Shown one piece after another: positions 9,235 through 57,470 of a stretch of 64,000 bases of DNA. This DNA is from Blastococcus sp. VKM Ac-2987. GTDB lineage: Bacteria > Actinomycetota > Actinomycetes > Mycobacteriales > Geodermatophilaceae. The stretch spans positions 1,364,047 through 1,428,046 of the forward strand of contig NZ_JAPVBG010000001.1 of the NCBI RefSeq assembly GCF_026967805.1, in the 5' to 3' direction. The position numbers were made by a program, and so were the translations under genes. Position 1 is the stretch's first letter. Every line of letters begins with the position of its first letter. The notes below the pieces were generated by a model that ran no database searches, was not told where the DNA came from, and saw only the letters and a program-made list of their open reading frames with translations.

Positions 9235-10536
9235 TCAGCCGATGAGGCCGGCGGCCCGCACCGACTTCAGCGACGGCTCGACGCGGTGGGTCGGGCCGAC
9301 GACCGGCTCCAGCGGGTCGAGGGTCTTCAGCCCCTCGCCGGTGTTGAGGACGACGGTCTCCTTCGCCGGGTCCAGCCGCCCGTTCTCCACCAGCTGACGC
9401 AGGACGGCGACAGTGACGCCACCGGCGGTCTCGGCGAAGACACCCGTGGTCCGGGCGAGGTCGCGGATGCCCTGGACGATCTCGTCGTCACTCACGCGTC
9501 CCACGGCACCGCCGGTGCGCCGGATCGCGTCCAGCGCGTACGGGCCGTCGGCCGGGTTGCCGATGTTGAGCGACTTGGCGATCCCGGTTGGCTTCACCGG
9601 CTTGACGACGTCCCAGCCGTTGTCGAACGCGGTGGCGATCGGGTCGCAGCCGGCCGACTGGGCGCCGAAGATCGTCCACTCGGTGGCCTCGACGATGCCC
9701 GCGGCGGTGAGCTCGCGGAAGGCCTTGTCCACCTTCGTCAGCAGCGAACCCGAGGCCATCGGGATGACCACCTGGGCCGGGATGCGCCAGCCGAGCTGCT
9801 CGGCGATCTCGTAGCCCATCGTCTTGGAGCCCTCGGCGTAGTAGGGCCGGACGTTCTGGTTGACGAAGGCGGTGTCCTCGAACTCGTCGGTCTCGGCGAG
9901 CTCGCTGGTCAGCCGGTTGACGTCGTCGTAGGAACCGTCGACGGCGACCAGCGTCTGACCGTAGACCGCCGACTGCACGACCTTCCCCGGCTCGAGGTCG
10001 GCCGGGATGAAGACGAACGACGGCAGGCCCACGCGGGCGGCGTGCGCGGCCACGGAGTTGGCCAGGTTGCCGGTCGAGGCGGCGGCGATCTTCTTGTAGC
10101 CCAAGCCCTTGGCGGCGGTCGCCGCGAGGCTGACCACCCGGTCCTTGAACGAGTGGGTGGGGTTGGCCGAGTCGTCCTTGACCCAGAGCCCACCGGTCAG
10201 GCCCAGTTCGTCGGCCAGCCGGTCGGCGCGCACCAGCGGGGTCATGCCGGGGTCCAGGGAGACGCGCCCGGCGGGGTCCTGGCCCACCGGCAGCAGCGCC
10301 ACGTACCGCCAGATGTTCTGCGGGCCGGCCTCGATCTGCGCCCGCGTCACCGCGCGCATGAGCTCGGGGTCGTAGTCGACCTCGAGCGGGCCGAAGCACT
10401 CGGCGCAGGCGTGCTCGGCGATGAGGCCGAAGGTGGCGCCGCAGTTGCGGCAGACGAGCCCGCGGGCCGGACAGGGCGGGGTCGGGCCACCGGCGGACGA
10501 GTCGGCCTGTACGGAACCGGGAGCGGTGAGAGTCAT
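9235..10536 (-). CDS. thrC: Threonine synthase-type PLP enzyme with N-terminal zinc ribbon
   Basis: A 433-residue fold-type II PLP enzyme. A rubredoxin-like zinc ribbon sits at residues 29-47 (CRNC ... CAEC). The PLP lysine is in NPTHSFKDR, followed by AASTGNLANS for phosphate binding, and PMASGSLLTK. The closest well-known function is conversion of O-phosphohomoserine to threonine. It is not in a hom-thrB cluster here, and it is preceded by a SAM-sensing riboswitch. It may therefore be a paralogue working in sulfur amino-acid metabolism; that is inference. The ATG at 10536 follows GAGGAGG. Confidence 0.88.
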   Translation of the reverse strand: MTLTAPGSVQADSSAGGPTPPCPARGLVCRNCGATFGLIAEHACAECFGPLEVDYDPELMRAVTRAQIEAGPQNIWRYVALLPVGQDPAGRVSLDPGMTPLVRADRLADELGLTGGLWVKDDSANPTHSFKDRVVSLAATAAKGLGYKKIAAASTGNLANSVAAHAARVGLPSFVFIPADLEPGKVVQSAVYGQTLVAVDGSYDDVNRLTSELAETDEFEDTAFVNQNVRPYYAEGSKTMGYEIAEQLGWRIPAQVVIPMASGSLLTKVDKAFRELTAAGIVEATEWTIFGAQSAGCDPIATAFDNGWDVVKPVKPTGIAKSLNIGNPADGPYALDAIRRTGGAVGRVSDDEIVQGIRDLARTTGVFAETAGGVTVAVLRQLVENGRLDPAKETVVLNTGEGLKTLDPLEPVVGPTHRVEPSLKSVRAAGLIG

Positions 10537-10550
10537 GCGACGACTACCTC

Positions 10551-10676
10551 CTCATCTTCCCCGCAGCGGGCCGTCGAGCCGCGCGGGACGGAATTGGCAC
10601 CTCCCGCCGCGCTCTCGCGTCGGACGGCGGTTGCCGGGGCTTCATCGGGCCGTGTCCCTCTGCCCCTCTGGATGAG
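10551..10676 (-). promoter_or_regulatory. SAM riboswitch (S-box / SAM-I superfamily) upstream of thrC
   Basis: Read on the minus strand, the leader carries CAGAGGGGCAGAGGGAC, then GGCCCGATGAAGCCCCGGCA, and finally GGAGGTGCCAATTCC. These are the conserved blocks of the S-box core in the right order. The closing helix P1 pairs CTCATC (10676-10671) with GATGAG (10556-10551). The GATGAG strand overlaps the Shine-Dalgarno GAGGAGG (10553-10547), so ligand binding should hide the ribosome site: a translational OFF switch. The exact subclass (SAM-I or SAM-IV) needs a covariance search. Confidence 0.9.
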
Positions 10677-10735
10677 TGAACGAGCAAATCGTACCCGCGG
10701 GCGGTACCGGATCCGGAGGCGGACAGGATGGGCGC

Positions 10736-11557
10736 GTGGCAGCGCGCATCGTCTACACCGATCTCGACGGCACCATGGTCGGCCCGCGGGGCTCCTTCTG
10801 GCACACCGCCGGCCGGGAGCTGACCGACGGACCGGCCGGTGCCCTGCTCGACCTGCACCGCGCCGGGGTGGTCCTGGTGCTGGTCAGCGGCCGGACCTAC
10901 GAGCAGGTGGTGGAGGCCGCGCGGATCTTCGCCGCCGACGGCGCCATCGCCGAGCTCGGCGCCACCATCGGCTGGGGCTTCGGGCGGAACACCCACCGGC
11001 TGCGCGGCGAGCTGCCCGCCGGGTACGGCGAGCGGACGGCCATGGACGTGATGGCGGAGCTCCGCGTCGTCGAGGAGCTGGTCGCCGCCAACCCCGGCCG
11101 GCTCGAGTGGCACGCGCCCTGGCACGCGACCCACTCCACCGACGCGCTGCTCCGCGGCCGGGTGGACGCGCTCGCCGTCGACGCGTGGCTCGCCGAGCGG
11201 GAGCTGGGCTGGCTCACCCTCAAGGACAACGGGGCGATCCCGGCGGCGTCGTGGATGGGTCTGGACGCCGATCCGGCACCGCCGCGGGTCTACCACCTGA
11301 TGCCGCGCGGCATCTCCAAGGGCGCCGCGATCGCCTGGGACCTGGAGCGCCGGGGCCTGTCCCCCGAGGACGCCGTGGGGATCGGCGACAGCATCAGCGA
11401 CCTCGACATGGCGCCCGCCGTGGGCCGGCTGTGGATCACCGCGAACGGCGGGGCGGTGGACGGGATGGCCGCGGCGCTGGCCGCCGTCCCCAACGCCACC
11501 GTCACCGACGCCGCGATGGGCGAGGGCTGGGCCCAGGCGGTCCGCGCCAGCCTGTGA
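10736..11557 (+). CDS. HAD superfamily (type IIB) phosphatase
   Basis: A 273-residue hydrolase starting at the GTG at 10736 (an in-frame GTG at 10676 lies inside the riboswitch and is less likely). HAD motif I is YTDLDGTMV with the nucleophile Asp, motif II is LVSGRT, the motif III Lys is in ISKGAAIAW, and motif IV is GIGDSISDLDM. The cap placement and SGRTYEQV sequence fit the Cof/mannosyl-3-phosphoglycerate phosphatase-like branch. The physiological substrate is unknown. Its stop codon lies in the conserved end of repeat locus A. Confidence 0.85.
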   Translation: MAARIVYTDLDGTMVGPRGSFWHTAGRELTDGPAGALLDLHRAGVVLVLVSGRTYEQVVEAARIFAADGAIAELGATIGWGFGRNTHRLRGELPAGYGERTAMDVMAELRVVEELVAANPGRLEWHAPWHATHSTDALLRGRVDALAVDAWLAERELGWLTLKDNGAIPAASWMGLDADPAPPRVYHLMPRGISKGAAIAWDLERRGLSPEDAVGIGDSISDLDMAPAVGRLWITANGGAVDGMAAALAAVPNATVTDAAMGEGWAQAVRASL

Positions 11558-11693
11558 CATCGCGATCCTCCGGATCGCACCGCGGCCAGGTGCGACGGCA
11601 TCGTCATCCTCCGGATGACACCGCCGCCAGGTGCCCTCCTGCGGTCGCGCTGAGCGTGTCCAGTCAGACCTCCGGGACCCCTCCGGGGCCCAC
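11554..11693 (-). repeat. Stem-loop repeat family, locus A (two strong modules plus decayed ones)
   Basis: On the plus strand, module 1 is GTGACA, then GCGATCC-TCC-GGATCGC (11562-11578), then ACCGCGGCCAGGTGC (11579-11593). Module 2 has GTCATCC-TCC-GGATGAC (11603-11619) followed by ACCGCCGCCAGGTGC (11620-11634). Two weaker hairpins with TCC loops follow near 11668 and 11680. The loops and flanks are conserved while stem bases change in pairs. Reverse-complement relatives are at 34911-35009 and 56668-56889. The element starts inside the HAD stop codon and fills the convergent gap before the ABC permease. Confidence 0.8.
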
Positions 11694-11709
11694 TCGGCGC
11701 GGCATCAGC

Positions 11710-34885: not shown

Positions 34886-34910
34886 GGCGCCCTGCGAGGG
34901 TCGGCCTGCG

Positions 34911-35009
34911 GGGTGGGGCCGGAGGCTTCCACGCGGGTCGACGAAAGGGCTCGTCGCAGCAGGGGTACGGCAATTGGCCGCGGTGCGATCCGGAGGATCG
35001 CCATGTCAC
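34911..35009 (+). repeat. Stem-loop repeat family, locus B
   Basis: GGGGCC-GGA-GGCTTCC at 34915-34930, GGCAATTGGCCGCGGT at 34969-34984, the stem-loop GCGATCC-GGA-GGATCGC at 34985-35001, and TGTCAC at 35004-35009. The order and spacing match the reverse complement of locus A and the plus strand of locus C. It fills the convergent gap between mutY and clpC, just ahead of their shared terminator. Confidence 0.8.
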
Positions 35010-35015
35010 GACACA

Positions 35016-35059
35016 CGACAGGGGCCGCCCCCACCTCGCGGTGGGAGCGGCCCCTGTCG
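35016..35059. terminator. Strong bidirectional terminator, mutY/clpC
   Basis: CGACAGGGGCCGC pairs with GCGGCCCCTGTCG, with a further CCCACC/GGTGGG helix inside. It lies 12 bases after the clpC stop. Confidence 0.85.
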
Positions 35060-35071
35060 GTGCTGCGCTCG

Positions 35072-37609
<2,538 letters not shown>

Positions 37610-53889: not shown

Positions 53890-54507
53890 CTACCGGCCGA
53901 GCACGAGGCTCATCGCCTCGGCGCGCGTGGCCGCGTTGTCCCGGAAGATGCCCCGCACCGCCGACGTGACGGTGGAGGAGCCGGGCTTGCGAACGCCGCG
54001 CATCGCCATGCACAGGTGCTCCGCCTGGACCACGACCAGCACGCCGCGCGGCTTGAGGGCGTCGGCGAGCGCGTCGGCGATCTGCCGCGTCAGCCGCTCC
54101 TGCACCTGCGGGCGGCGGGCGTAGACCTCCACCAGGCGGGCGAGCTTGGACAGCCCGGTGACCCGGCCGTCCTCCCCCGGGATGTAGGCGACGTGCGCGA
54201 CCCCGTGGAAGGGCACGAGGTGGTGCTCGCAGGTCGAGTACATCGGGATGTCCTTGACCAGCACCAGCTCGTCGTGGTCCTCGTCGAACGTCGTCGCGAG
54301 GATGTCGTACGGGTCCTGCCACAGGCCGGCGAAGGTCTCCGCGTAGGAGCGGGCGACCCGCGCCGGGGTGTCCTGCAGGCCGGGCCGGTCCGGGTCCTCC
54401 CCGACGGCGATCAGCAGCTCGCGGACCGCCGCCGCGACCCGCTCCTGGTCGACCCCGGGGGCCGGCCCCAGCAGCTGGTCCTCCGGCTCCGCCGGGATCT
54501 CACTCAT
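53890..54507 (-). CDS. folE: GTP cyclohydrolase I
   Basis: A 205-residue enzyme. [15 protein letters not shown] and [15 protein letters not shown] contain the zinc ligands Cys, His and Cys; [20 protein letters not shown] is the family core. It starts folate synthesis from GTP. The ATG overlaps the ftsH TGA (ATGA). Confidence 0.97.
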
Positions 54508-56480
54508 CGCTGGGCGGGGGCCCCGACGTCCCCGACGGGCGTGGTGTCGGGCACGGACCCGTTGTACCCGGCCCGCTCGGCCGGCGTGAGCACCGGCGGC
54601 TGGGTGGACGGGGTGCGCTTGCCGAAGCCGTTGTACGGGGCGAGGGAGGGCCGCTTGACGACCGGCGCGCAGATGCGCGCCATGTCCTCCTTGGACAGCG
54701 TCTCCTTCTCCATCAGCTCGAGCACCAGCTGGTCGAGGACGTCGCGGTACTCGACCAGGATCTCCCAGGCTTCGTCGTGCGCGGCCTCGATCAGCGCCCG
54801 GATCTCGGCGTCGATGTCGCCGGCCACGGCCTCGGAGTAGTCCGGGCGGGAGCCCATGTCCCGGCCCATGAACGGCTCGGAGTCGGTGCTGCCGTACTTC
54901 ACCGCGCCCAGCTTGGCGCTCATGCCGTACTGGGTGACCATCGCCCGGGCCATGGAGGTGGCCTTCTCGATGTCGTTGCCCGCGCCGGTGGTCGGCTCGT
55001 GGAAGACCAGCTCCTCGGCCGCGCGCCCGCCGAGGGCGTAGGCGAGCGTGTCGATCATCTCCGAGCGCGTCTGGGTGTACTTGTCCTCGGTGGGGAGGAC
55101 CAGCGTGTGCCCCAGCGAGCGGCCGCGCGGGAGGATCGTCACCTTGTGCACCGGGTCCAGGTTGGGCAACGCGTGCGCCACCAGGGCGTGGCCGCCCTCG
55201 TGGTAGGCGGTGACCTTCTTCTCCTTCTCGCTCATCGCCCGGGTCTTGCGCTCGGGGCCGGCGATGACCCGGTCGATCGCCTCCTCGAGGGTGCTGTCGG
55301 TGATCAGCGAGCCGTTGTTGCGGGCGGTCAGCAGCGCGCCCTCGTTGAGCACGTTGGCGAGGTCGGCGCCGGTGAAGCCCGGGGTGCGGCGGGCCACGGT
55401 CTCGAGGTCGACGTCGGGCGCGAGCGGCTTGCCCTTGGCGTGCACCTCCAGGATCCGCTTGCGGCCCAGGAGGTCGGGCCGGTCGACGGCGATCTGGCGG
55501 TCGAAGCGGCCCGGGCGCAGCAGCGCCGGGTCGAGGACGTCCGGCCGGTTGGTCGCGGCGATCAGGATGACCCCGCCCTTGACGTCGAAGCCGTCCATCT
55601 CGACGAGCATCTGGTTGAGCGTCTGCTCGCGCTCGTCGTGGCCGCCGCCCATGCCGGCGCCGCGCTGCCGGCCGACGGCGTCGATCTCGTCGACGAAGAT
55701 GATCGCGGGGGCGTTCTCCTTCGCCTGCGTGAACAGGTCGCGGACCCGGCTGGCACCCACACCGACGAACATCTCGACGAAGTCCGAGCCGGAGATGGAG
55801 AAGAACGGGACGCCGGCCTCACCGGCGACGGCGCGGGCGAGCAGCGTCTTGCCGGTCCCGGGCGGGCCGAACAGCAGGACGCCCTTGGGGATCTTGGCGC
55901 CGACGGCCTGGAACTTGACCGGGTTCTGCAGGAAGTCCTTGATCTCGTGCAGTTCCTCGATCGCCTCGTCGGCGCCGGCGACGTCGCCGAACGTCGTCTT
56001 CGGCATGTCCTTGGTCAGCTGCTTGGCCTTGGACTTGCCGAAGGCCATGACGCCGCGGCCGCCACCCTGCATGGAGTTGAACAGCCAGAAGAGCAGGAGC
56101 AGGAGGATGAGGAACGGCAGGAAGCTGATCAGCAGGCTGGTCAGCAGGCTGTCCTGGGTGACGTTGGTGTCGAACTCGGTGGAGTCGCCGCCCTCGTCGC
56201 GCAGCAGGCCGACGATCTGGTCCTCGACCGCCACGGGGTAGGACGTCACGACCTCGGTGCTGCCCTCGACCTCGTCGGCCAGGTCCAGCTCGAGCGTCTG
56301 CTCCCGCGTGTTGAGCGTCGCCGACTCGACGTTGCCGTTCTCGATCTGCTCGAGGGCCGTCGAGGTGGTGATCTCCTGGCGGCCGTCCTCACCGCTGAAC
56401 AGCGACGAGACGGTCAGGGCCAGCAGGATGACCAGGACGACCCAGAACCAGACGGAGCGGAAGATCTTCTTGCGTTCCAT
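54504..56480 (-). CDS. ftsH: ATP-dependent zinc metalloprotease FtsH
   Basis: A 658-residue membrane AAA protease. Helices at about 7-25 and 112-132 flank an external domain; Walker [11 protein letters not shown], Walker [16 protein letters not shown] in [20 protein letters not shown]; the zinc site is [12 protein letters not shown]. The C-terminal tail is short. The ATG at 56480 gives a normal N-terminus ([16 protein letters not shown]). It degrades membrane and some soluble proteins. It heads the folate operon. Confidence 0.97.
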
Positions 56481-56667
56481 ACACCGATGCCGGGCACCGG
56501 CGTACCGGCCTGCCCGTCGACCCTCCTGATCGTCCCAGGACACCACCAACGGCCCGGGTACGGACCCCGGCGCTCGGTGCAGCGTCGTCGGCATCGACGG
56601 TACACCGGCGAACCTGCCCGACTCCGGCGTACGACCTGGGAACCCCACCCGGCCGAGCTAGGGGGTC

Positions 56668-56889
56668 GGTGCGCCGAGCGGGCGGCCGGAGGCTGCCCCG
56701 AGGCGCACCGAGGACACGCCGGACGCCACGGGGGCACGGCACGTGGTCGCGACACCTGGAGCGAGCCGCTCCGCGAGACCGGTGCGCCGAGCGGGGGCCG
56801 GAGGCTCCCCGAGGCGTACGGGAAACGGCTCAGCGCACGCCGGGGACGGCACCTGGCCGCGGTCGTCGTCCGGAGGACGACAGTGTCAC
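56668..56889 (+). repeat. Stem-loop repeat family, locus C (two tandem copies)
   Basis: GGTGCGCCGAGCGGG followed by a GGAGGCT hairpin at 56668 recurs at 56781 (offset 113). The second copy continues to GGCACCTGGCCGCGGT (56848-56863), the stem-loop GTCGTCC-GGA-GGACGAC (56865-56881) and TGTCAC (56884-56889), in which lies the hpt stop. The first copy has a decayed version of this end. It fills most of the 405-base gap between hpt and ftsH; the remainder (56481-56667) is the ftsH upstream region without a gene. Confidence 0.8.
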
Positions 56890-57470
56890 TGGTACACCTC
56901 GGGCTTGAGCGTCCCGATGTAGGGCAGGTCGCGGTAGCGCTCGGCGTAGTCGAGGCCGTAGCCGATGACGAACTCGTTCGGGATGTCGAAGCCGATGTAC
57001 TTGACCGGCACCTGGACCTTGACGGCGTCGGGCTTGCGCAGCAGGGCGCAGACCTCGAGGGACGCGGGCGCGCGGCCGCCGAGGTTCTTCAGCAGCCAGG
57101 ACAGCGTCAGCCCGGAGTCGATGATGTCCTCGAGCACGAGCACGTGCTTGTCCGTGATGTCCCGGTCGAGGTCCTTGAGGATGCGCACGACACCCGAGGA
57201 GCTGGTGGACGACCCGTAGGACGACACCGCCATGAACTCCATCTGGGTGGGCAGCTGCAGCGCGCGGGCGAAGTCGCTCATGAACAGCACCGCGCCCTTG
57301 AGCACGCCGACGAGCAGGACCTCCTTGCCCGCGTAGTCGGCGGCGACCTGGGCGGCGAGCTCGGCGATCTTCTCCCGGATCTGCTCCTCGCTGAGCAGGA
57401 CGTGGTCGATGTCCGGTCCGTAACCGTGGTCGGGACCGAGCGCCCCGGGAGTGCTGGCAGGCTCCGTCAC
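56886..57470 (-). CDS. hpt: Hypoxanthine-guanine phosphoribosyltransferase
   Basis: A 194-residue enzyme. PRPP-binding [31 protein letters not shown] and the flexible loop [15 protein letters not shown]-terminal [20 protein letters not shown]. Salvages purine bases with PRPP. The GTG overlaps the tilS TGA. Its own stop is inside repeat locus C. Confidence 0.96.

Follow-up and report, generated by a model that had tools for sequence, protein, structure and literature searches.

A dispersed, structured repeat of about 112 nucleotides, often found behind stop codons in Geodermatophilaceae

We found a repeat of about 112 nt that is dispersed through genomes of the Geodermatophilaceae. Its copies form one family with a conserved structure and covarying stems, they tend to lie just behind stop codons, and their presence at orthologous sites is patchy. 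We conclude that this is a genuine lineage-specific structured repeat, of the small dispersed palindromic kind, and that it is apparently undescribed. (Among the matches listed in a full-text search, in which subscription papers were not covered, no title or abstract start describes it.) The nature of the repeat is well supported; its mode of spread and its effect on the host are what we infer. Our best explanation is that it is non-autonomous and that its copies spread as passengers, and we think that this account is probably right.

The window is the 64-kb stretch of DNA from Blastococcus sp. VKM Ac-2987 that we analysed. With a covariance model of the repeat, we identified three full elements in the window, along with one solitary unit comprising the helices P1 and P2 and one weak, degenerate copy. 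(Ten other matches in the window, with E values of 0.04-0.99, were treated as chance.) The elements and the genes around them are:

10676..11557, + strand, HAD-like hydrolase gene, whose stop codon lies ahead of the solitary unit
11562..11593, + strand, solitary P1-P2 unit (22.8 bits, model positions 9-43), with the stem GCGATCC/GGATCGC and the loop TCC
11595..11706, + strand, full element (71.3 bits), with P1 at 11603-11619 (GTCATCC/GGATGAC), then P2, a linker with GAGC, and P3
33992..34885, + strand, convergent gene for an HhH-GPD DNA glycosylase-like protein, separated by 11 nt from the next element on its P3 side
34897..35009, - strand, full element (88.3 bits) in the interval between clpC and the HhH-GPD gene, with P1 at 34985-35001
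35017..35058, - strand, separate G+C-rich terminator-like hairpin (identified by eye) in the interval between clpC and the element
35072..37609, - strand, ClpC-like AAA+ gene, upstream of the element and 62 nt from it
54504..56648, - strand, FtsH-like gene, downstream of the 56778..56889 element and in the same direction
56665..56765, - strand, weak degenerate tandem copy with most of P1 missing (21.8 bits, E = 0.0025)
56778..56889, - strand, full element (80.2 bits), with P1 at 56865-56881
56886..57470, - strand, phosphoribosyltransferase (hpt-like) gene, whose last codon is the element's TGA

The solitary unit starts four nucleotides after the stop codon of the HAD-like gene (TGA, 11555-11557). 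At the hpt-like gene, the element's own TGA (56888-56886) doubles as the stop codon.

The sequence-only reading had described four stem-loops in this window as complete members of a family. We confirmed all four at the positions given, each with the described stem around TCC; those at 34985 and 56865 are on the minus strand. But the stem-loop is just the first third of the conserved element, which has further helices. It had also placed GTGACA ahead of all four stem-loops; this is correct for three of them (at 11554-11559 for the solitary unit), while the unit at 11603 has ACGGCA instead. The core pattern has three matches in the window with up to 3 mismatches, as compared to none in 100 shuffled sequences. 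Across the whole genome of Blastococcus sp. VKM Ac-2987, the same pattern has 32 matches (16 per strand) and its reverse has none.

The extent of the element was apparent from an alignment of 28 copies from this genome (alignment A1), in which conservation continues far past the stretch noted earlier, to about 112 nt. (These 28 elements come from 30 loci; L022 was omitted because of masked bases and L004 overlaps L012.) The element consists of [D]TGACA, the P1 hairpin with its TCC loop, ACCGCGGCCANNNGCCGT (P2), a linker with GAGC, and P3, which includes a second hairpin with a TCC loop. We then compared copies from across the family. We extracted 203 copies by searching for the P1-P2 pattern, and 135 of these have a recognisable P3 end; from this pool, 78 copies were aligned (alignment A2), hand-picked among 110 of 122 non-redundant references. 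The consensus of A2 is [A/G]TGACA[C/T], P1 (7 base pairs around TCC), ACC, P2, CCCC, the GAGC-bearing linker, and P3, and [A/G]TGACA is the most common sequence ahead of P1. P2 has 5 base pairs (GCGGC-CANNN-GCCGT) and is nearly invariant. P3 has an outer stem around the second hairpin, and TCC is at the apex in 55 of the 60 copies whose apex is paired. Because the copies were fetched by their P1-P2 pattern, the constancy of the P1 loop and of P2 is partly built in; the constancy of P3 is free of this effect, except for its CACTCGGC-like end.

The sequence-only reading had also proposed that changes in the stems are compensated, and this is upheld across the 78 aligned copies. Standard pairs make up 86.2% of the 2,087 cells in A2, as compared to 76.4% after shuffling, and both sides of the pair have changed in 202 cells (70.2 after shuffling). 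The covariation score is 0.239, versus 0.096 for shuffled columns and at most 0.074 if the partners are slid by 1-3 columns. A caveat is that the helices were named from the same alignment that was then used to score them. The proportion of paired cells is 96.0% for P1, 98.7% for P2, 75.7% for the outer part of P3, and 79.3% for the inner part of P3. Five pairs of columns exceed every value from a tree-based null (8 simulations with a custom script), and four of these five belong to the structure: three are in P1 and one is in P3, while the fifth is a cross pair within P1. Overall, P1 and P3 covary beyond the shuffled, slid, and tree-based nulls. Because P2 hardly varies, its support consists of constant arms around a variable loop.

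No Rfam family accounts for the element. At the gathering score, the only matches in the window are two tRNAs and a SAM riboswitch, and at the four loci with strong elements there was one sub-threshold match (E = 0.39), which was located elsewhere. The SAM (S-box) riboswitch, at 10549-10678 on the minus strand, is directly upstream of a gene for a PLP-dependent enzyme (9235-10536, minus strand), which is divergent from the HAD-like gene.

The structure also bears on how the loops might act. The sequence-only reading had suggested that the TCC loop with its flanking CC resembles an exposed anti-Shine-Dalgarno sequence (or a Shine-Dalgarno sequence on the other strand). One rival explanation is that the element is a decoy of this kind. 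CCTCC/GGAGG is indeed found at the apical part of both P1 and P3. However, in P1 the CC beside the loop forms base pairs in 77-78 of the 78 copies, which leaves only three loop bases exposed. P3 has this loop too, with flanks that are C-G pairs in 60-70 of the 78 copies. We consider a decoy scarcely credible.

The covariance model finds 48 copies in the genome of Blastococcus sp. VKM Ac-2987 at E ≤ 0.001 and 56 at E ≤ 0.1. Among the 23 genomes of the genus, one (G003) has no copies, G012 has at least 100 (a lower bound, since all 100 of the scored candidates matched), and the others have from 6 (in G004) to 73. (G003 lies inside the genus tree, and its nearest genomes on a two-gene tree have 16-33 copies.) The two outcomes that would have told against the sequence-only reading did not arise: a covariance-model search of the family turns up further copies, in 32 of 37 genomes, and the stems covary in the larger set. 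The genomes without the element are G003, G027, G030, G032, and G189. Beyond the family, the filters were stricter and only a few candidates were scored in each genome: 39 of 249 genomes from the order had matches, of which 38 are in the family and one, G181, is outside it, and the matches among 396 genomes from the phylum were in our own genome and in G324 only. The match in G324 (40 bits) lacks the conserved P3 and we judged it to be due to chance. A pattern match in G059 was not confirmed by the covariance model. Of the named stretches obtained from a scan of a genome collection (at least 118), two were outside the family by name (from Kitasatospora and from a Myxococcales bin), and both score at chance levels, so we do not consider them to be relatives. 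Overall, the element is nearly confined to the Geodermatophilaceae, and it could serve as a typing marker for this family.

Two other records deserve mention. G181, from another family of the order, contains a full element (L269:1500-1612); this draft genome is 86% complete and 4% contaminated, and the element is possibly contamination or transfer. A third stretch from the collection, in the record for "Bacillus sp. AZ43" (L081), which is marked as unverified, also contains a genuine element; most probably, this genome belongs to the Geodermatophilaceae and was mislabelled.

We then examined where the copies lie relative to genes. We inferred the coding strand with a custom rule, from the G+C content by codon position (no gene caller was used), which left some copies undecided. 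The strand could be decided for 185 of the 203 copies. The gene ahead of P1 has the same orientation as the element in 159 of these and the opposite orientation in 26, although this set contains some non-elements. Of the 166 copies for which a stop codon was found, 116 have it 6-24 nt ahead of CCTCCGG. The most common offset is exactly 12 nt (44 of 166), which is the place of the element's own TGA, and at this offset P1 begins four nucleotides past the stop. The stop codon is TGA at 83 of 88 gene ends with an element and at 542 of 644 without. A convergent gene follows P3 at 51 of the 63 element-bearing gene ends that could be decided (25 could not); where there is no element, the next gene is convergent at 181 of 517 (127 could not be decided). 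P3 lies at widely varying distances from the convergent stop codon. As exceptions, a few copies are near start codons or have a reversed neighbor.

G+C-rich hairpins behind stop codons could be ordinary intrinsic terminators that resemble each other by chance. But unpaired sequence is conserved across the 78 copies, which come from several genera, and one species has no element at all. Also, no U-tract (TTTT, or five T within 8 nt) follows P3 on the plus strand or P1 on the minus strand in any of the 78 copies. At the two places we examined (clpC in the window, and behind a triple copy in G012), distinct terminator-like hairpins adjoin the element. Given the covariance-model and U-tract results, chance resemblance among terminators is very unlikely.

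Alternatively, the repeat might be a 3'-UTR RNA element that is selected by the host. It would block read-through or 3' exonucleases from either of two convergent genes, and P1 would slow the release of the ribosome; spread by recombination would be incidental. The narrow spacing from the stop codon, the preference for convergent neighbors, and the constancy of P2 and the loops while the stems covary all favor this possibility. On the other hand, G003 has no copies and G004 has only 6, even though G003 and the other species with empty sites do possess the hpt and HAD genes. In at least three species, a copy lies between the co-directional accD- and accE-like genes, where an insulator would be harmful, and the missing U-tract, on both strands, does not fit either. 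We regard a host-selected element as possible but unlikely.

A related issue is which strand folds. P1 and P3 contain 126 A.C cells, which would be G.U pairs on the minus strand, as compared to 27 G.U cells. Plain mutation bias does not explain this excess, because on the plus strand C-to-T changes are more frequent than G-to-A changes (0.061 vs. 0.034 at unpaired positions and 0.060 vs. 0.044 at paired positions). However, just two pairs in P3 supply 78 of the 126 A.C cells, and P2 shows the opposite pattern (76 G.U and 1 A.C on the plus strand). With RNA energies, the minus strand folds better relative to shuffled sequence (lower z) in 61 of the 78 copies (mean z = -2.37 vs. -1.39 for the plus strand), which would also suit a 3'-UTR element. 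With DNA energies, the strands hardly separate (mean z = -1.63 for minus and -1.49 for plus, with minus lower in 43 of 78). Despite these contrary points, the wobble asymmetry and the RNA folding lean towards a folded minus-strand RNA, with its GGA loops.

If this RNA were the functional form, its hairpins could bind a protein such as CsrA, which is known to bind GGA loops, and the copies would act as dispersed binding sites or sponges. The A.C excess and the lower RNA energies of the minus strand are consistent with this. A CsrA gene is found in all 23 genomes of this actinobacterial genus, including G003, which has no elements. CsrA sites have ANGGA within a hairpin loop of a transcribed RNA, and the minus-strand GGA sits instead in a tight triloop after a paired C. 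Because G003 has CsrA without the element and because the triloop is unlike the usual CsrA loop, this remains a minor rival, and we consider it quite improbable.

We also compared orthologous sites across 22 species. A copy is present at the hpt site in 11 species (inverted in one) and at the HAD site in 5 (inverted in one and truncated in another), and each site requires five parsimony changes on the two-gene tree. G015 and G016 are sister genomes, yet neither site is in the same state in the two. The empty hpt site in G015 resembles the scar of a deletion, which means that some of the patchiness reflects loss and not insertion. Some copies look inherited: at the HAD site, G000 and G015 share an identical double-P1 layout, and at the hpt site, P1 is followed by one additional base in several species alike. 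When we compared occupied and empty sites, no terminal inverted repeats or target duplications were visible, but the flanks have diverged, and several of these pairs have additional sequence differences at the junction. The element has also multiplied in tandem. There are four P1 units in a row in L014 and three in L207, and L267:1480-1890 has three whole elements in a row behind one gene, with the third beginning within the P3 arm of a broken copy.

What might move the repeat? A REP driven by a RAYT was rejected for this genus because none of its 23 genomes encodes a member of the REP-transposase family (PF01797); as a control, the same search was positive in 5 of 14 known genomes. Reverse transcriptases (PF00078) are found in 4 of the 23 genomes and IS110-type transposases (PF02371) in 13. 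Neither can be necessary, as Blastococcus sp. VKM Ac-2987 has neither family, and PF02371 is also missing from G012 despite its 100 or more copies. A phage or plasmid origin was rejected as well: the one element that we compared to phage and plasmid collections had no match, and there was no exact match to the pattern in viral contigs. Nor does the repeat appear to encode protein, since the reading frame is open in 151 of 209 copies (72%), as compared to 67% of mononucleotide shuffles, and a different frame is uninterrupted in 166 of the 209. A longer autonomous element with its own gene may be the source; we checked for this among open reading frames near neighboring copies, in five stretches from our own genome and one from G012, using the starts of their translations only.

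We propose that the copies spread as passengers, probably via a single-stranded folded form that would be recognised by a cellular or foreign enzyme. Copies would persist mainly at the 3' ends of genes, and most of all where two genes converge, since at such places they disrupt no coding sequence or operon and can supply the stop codon. Once a copy is inserted, mRNAs would carry P1 and P3 as hairpins at their 3' ends. By analogy with REPs, P1 at four nucleotides behind the stop codon would likely have some effect on the host's translation, which would be secondary. Several points stand against this account: we found no mobiliser in the three protein families searched and no clean target duplication, some copies look inherited and some empty sites may reflect loss, 26 of the 185 decided copies have an opposite-strand gene ahead of P1, and the tight spacing from the stop codon and the constancy of P2 exceed what a pure passenger would need.

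The sequence-only reading had called the element REP/MITE-like or a structured RNA. This is broadly right: copies are scattered and structured, their stems covary, and sites have gained and lost them patchily. But the element fails tests that define REPs. MITEs are a general class of non-autonomous intergenic elements of around 100 bp. Our repeat is likewise non-autonomous, about 100 bp, and intergenic, but neither inverted repeats at its ends nor a clean target duplication were visible in the site pairs compared, with their diverged flanks.

The resemblance to REPs is closer. As described in the text available to us, REPs of the GTAG and CGTC types are short palindromic stem-loops that occur in many copies, are extragenic and near genes, and form clusters, with variant stems that preserve pairing (PMC3733652). 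They are found near stop codons and some supply the stop (PMC3733652, PMC12306157). Our repeat shares all of these features. GTAG REPs are tied to RAYT transposases, while CGTC REPs seem to lack a dedicated transposase (PMC3733652), as our repeat apparently does. REPs of any type are dispersed extragenic palindromes with a stem of 5-13 bp and a short loop, and P1, with its 7 bp, 3-nt loop, and 48 copies in our genome, qualifies as one. But our unit is about 112 nt with several helices, the GTAG tetranucleotide is not at its end, alignment A2 has no CGTC tag, and the genus lacks PF01797, so the repeat falls outside the strict definition of a REP. Also, Actinobacteria are not among the phyla named for GTAG or CGTC REPs in the available portion of PMC3733652. 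Putative REPs under the wide RepRanger definition have been tabulated for three Actinomycetota genomes (PMC12306157). That paper, citing earlier work, states that an E. coli REP lowers translation if it lies within 15 nt of a stop codon, and our hairpin is often within about 15 nt of the stop; but the available text of the paper names no Geodermatophilaceae.

MIRUs are another point of comparison. A MIRU inserts at a start codon and becomes coupled to the gene that follows (PMC12548453). Like MIRUs, as they are presented in the available parts of two papers, our repeat is actinobacterial, dispersed, and apparently mobile (PMC12548453, PMC4213456). MIRUs start at an overlapping stop/start DTGA, and part of our copies may do so as well: ATGA is at that position in 47 and GTGA in 38 of 213 extracted copies (a set that includes some non-elements due to loose matches; the rest differ), and three copies between accD and accE appear by eye to be in frame with accE. 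Unlike MIRUs, our repeat has covarying hairpins, sits mostly before convergent genes, and has a reading frame that is not clearly open above chance. Our best reading is that the repeat behaves like both REPs and MIRUs yet fails defining tests of each.

A bolder view is that it represents a new class of bacterial mobile repeat, aimed at stop codons, that spreads with no REP-type transposase and whose active form is the folded antisense strand, as RNA or DNA, bearing a GGA-loop hairpin at each end. We think that this is unlikely, and a little more so than selection by the host. Still, genomes in an actinobacterial family carry as many as a hundred or so structured copies, with no RAYT in the one genus tested, and this raises the question of how REP-like repeats spread without a dedicated transposase. 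It also raises the question of whether a hairpin placed immediately after a stop codon is a passenger that the host tolerates or a useful part of the 3' end.

Finally, we considered the copies between the accD- and accE-like genes (named by eye). At least three of them (L030, L076, and L082) begin with an ATG that overlaps the stop codon, and by eye this frame continues into accE. In Candidatus Blastococcus massiliensis, the accD-accE junction is short. As compared to L150, the copy in these three loci seems, again by eye, to give accE a new start codon and an in-frame N-terminal extension that is derived from the repeat.
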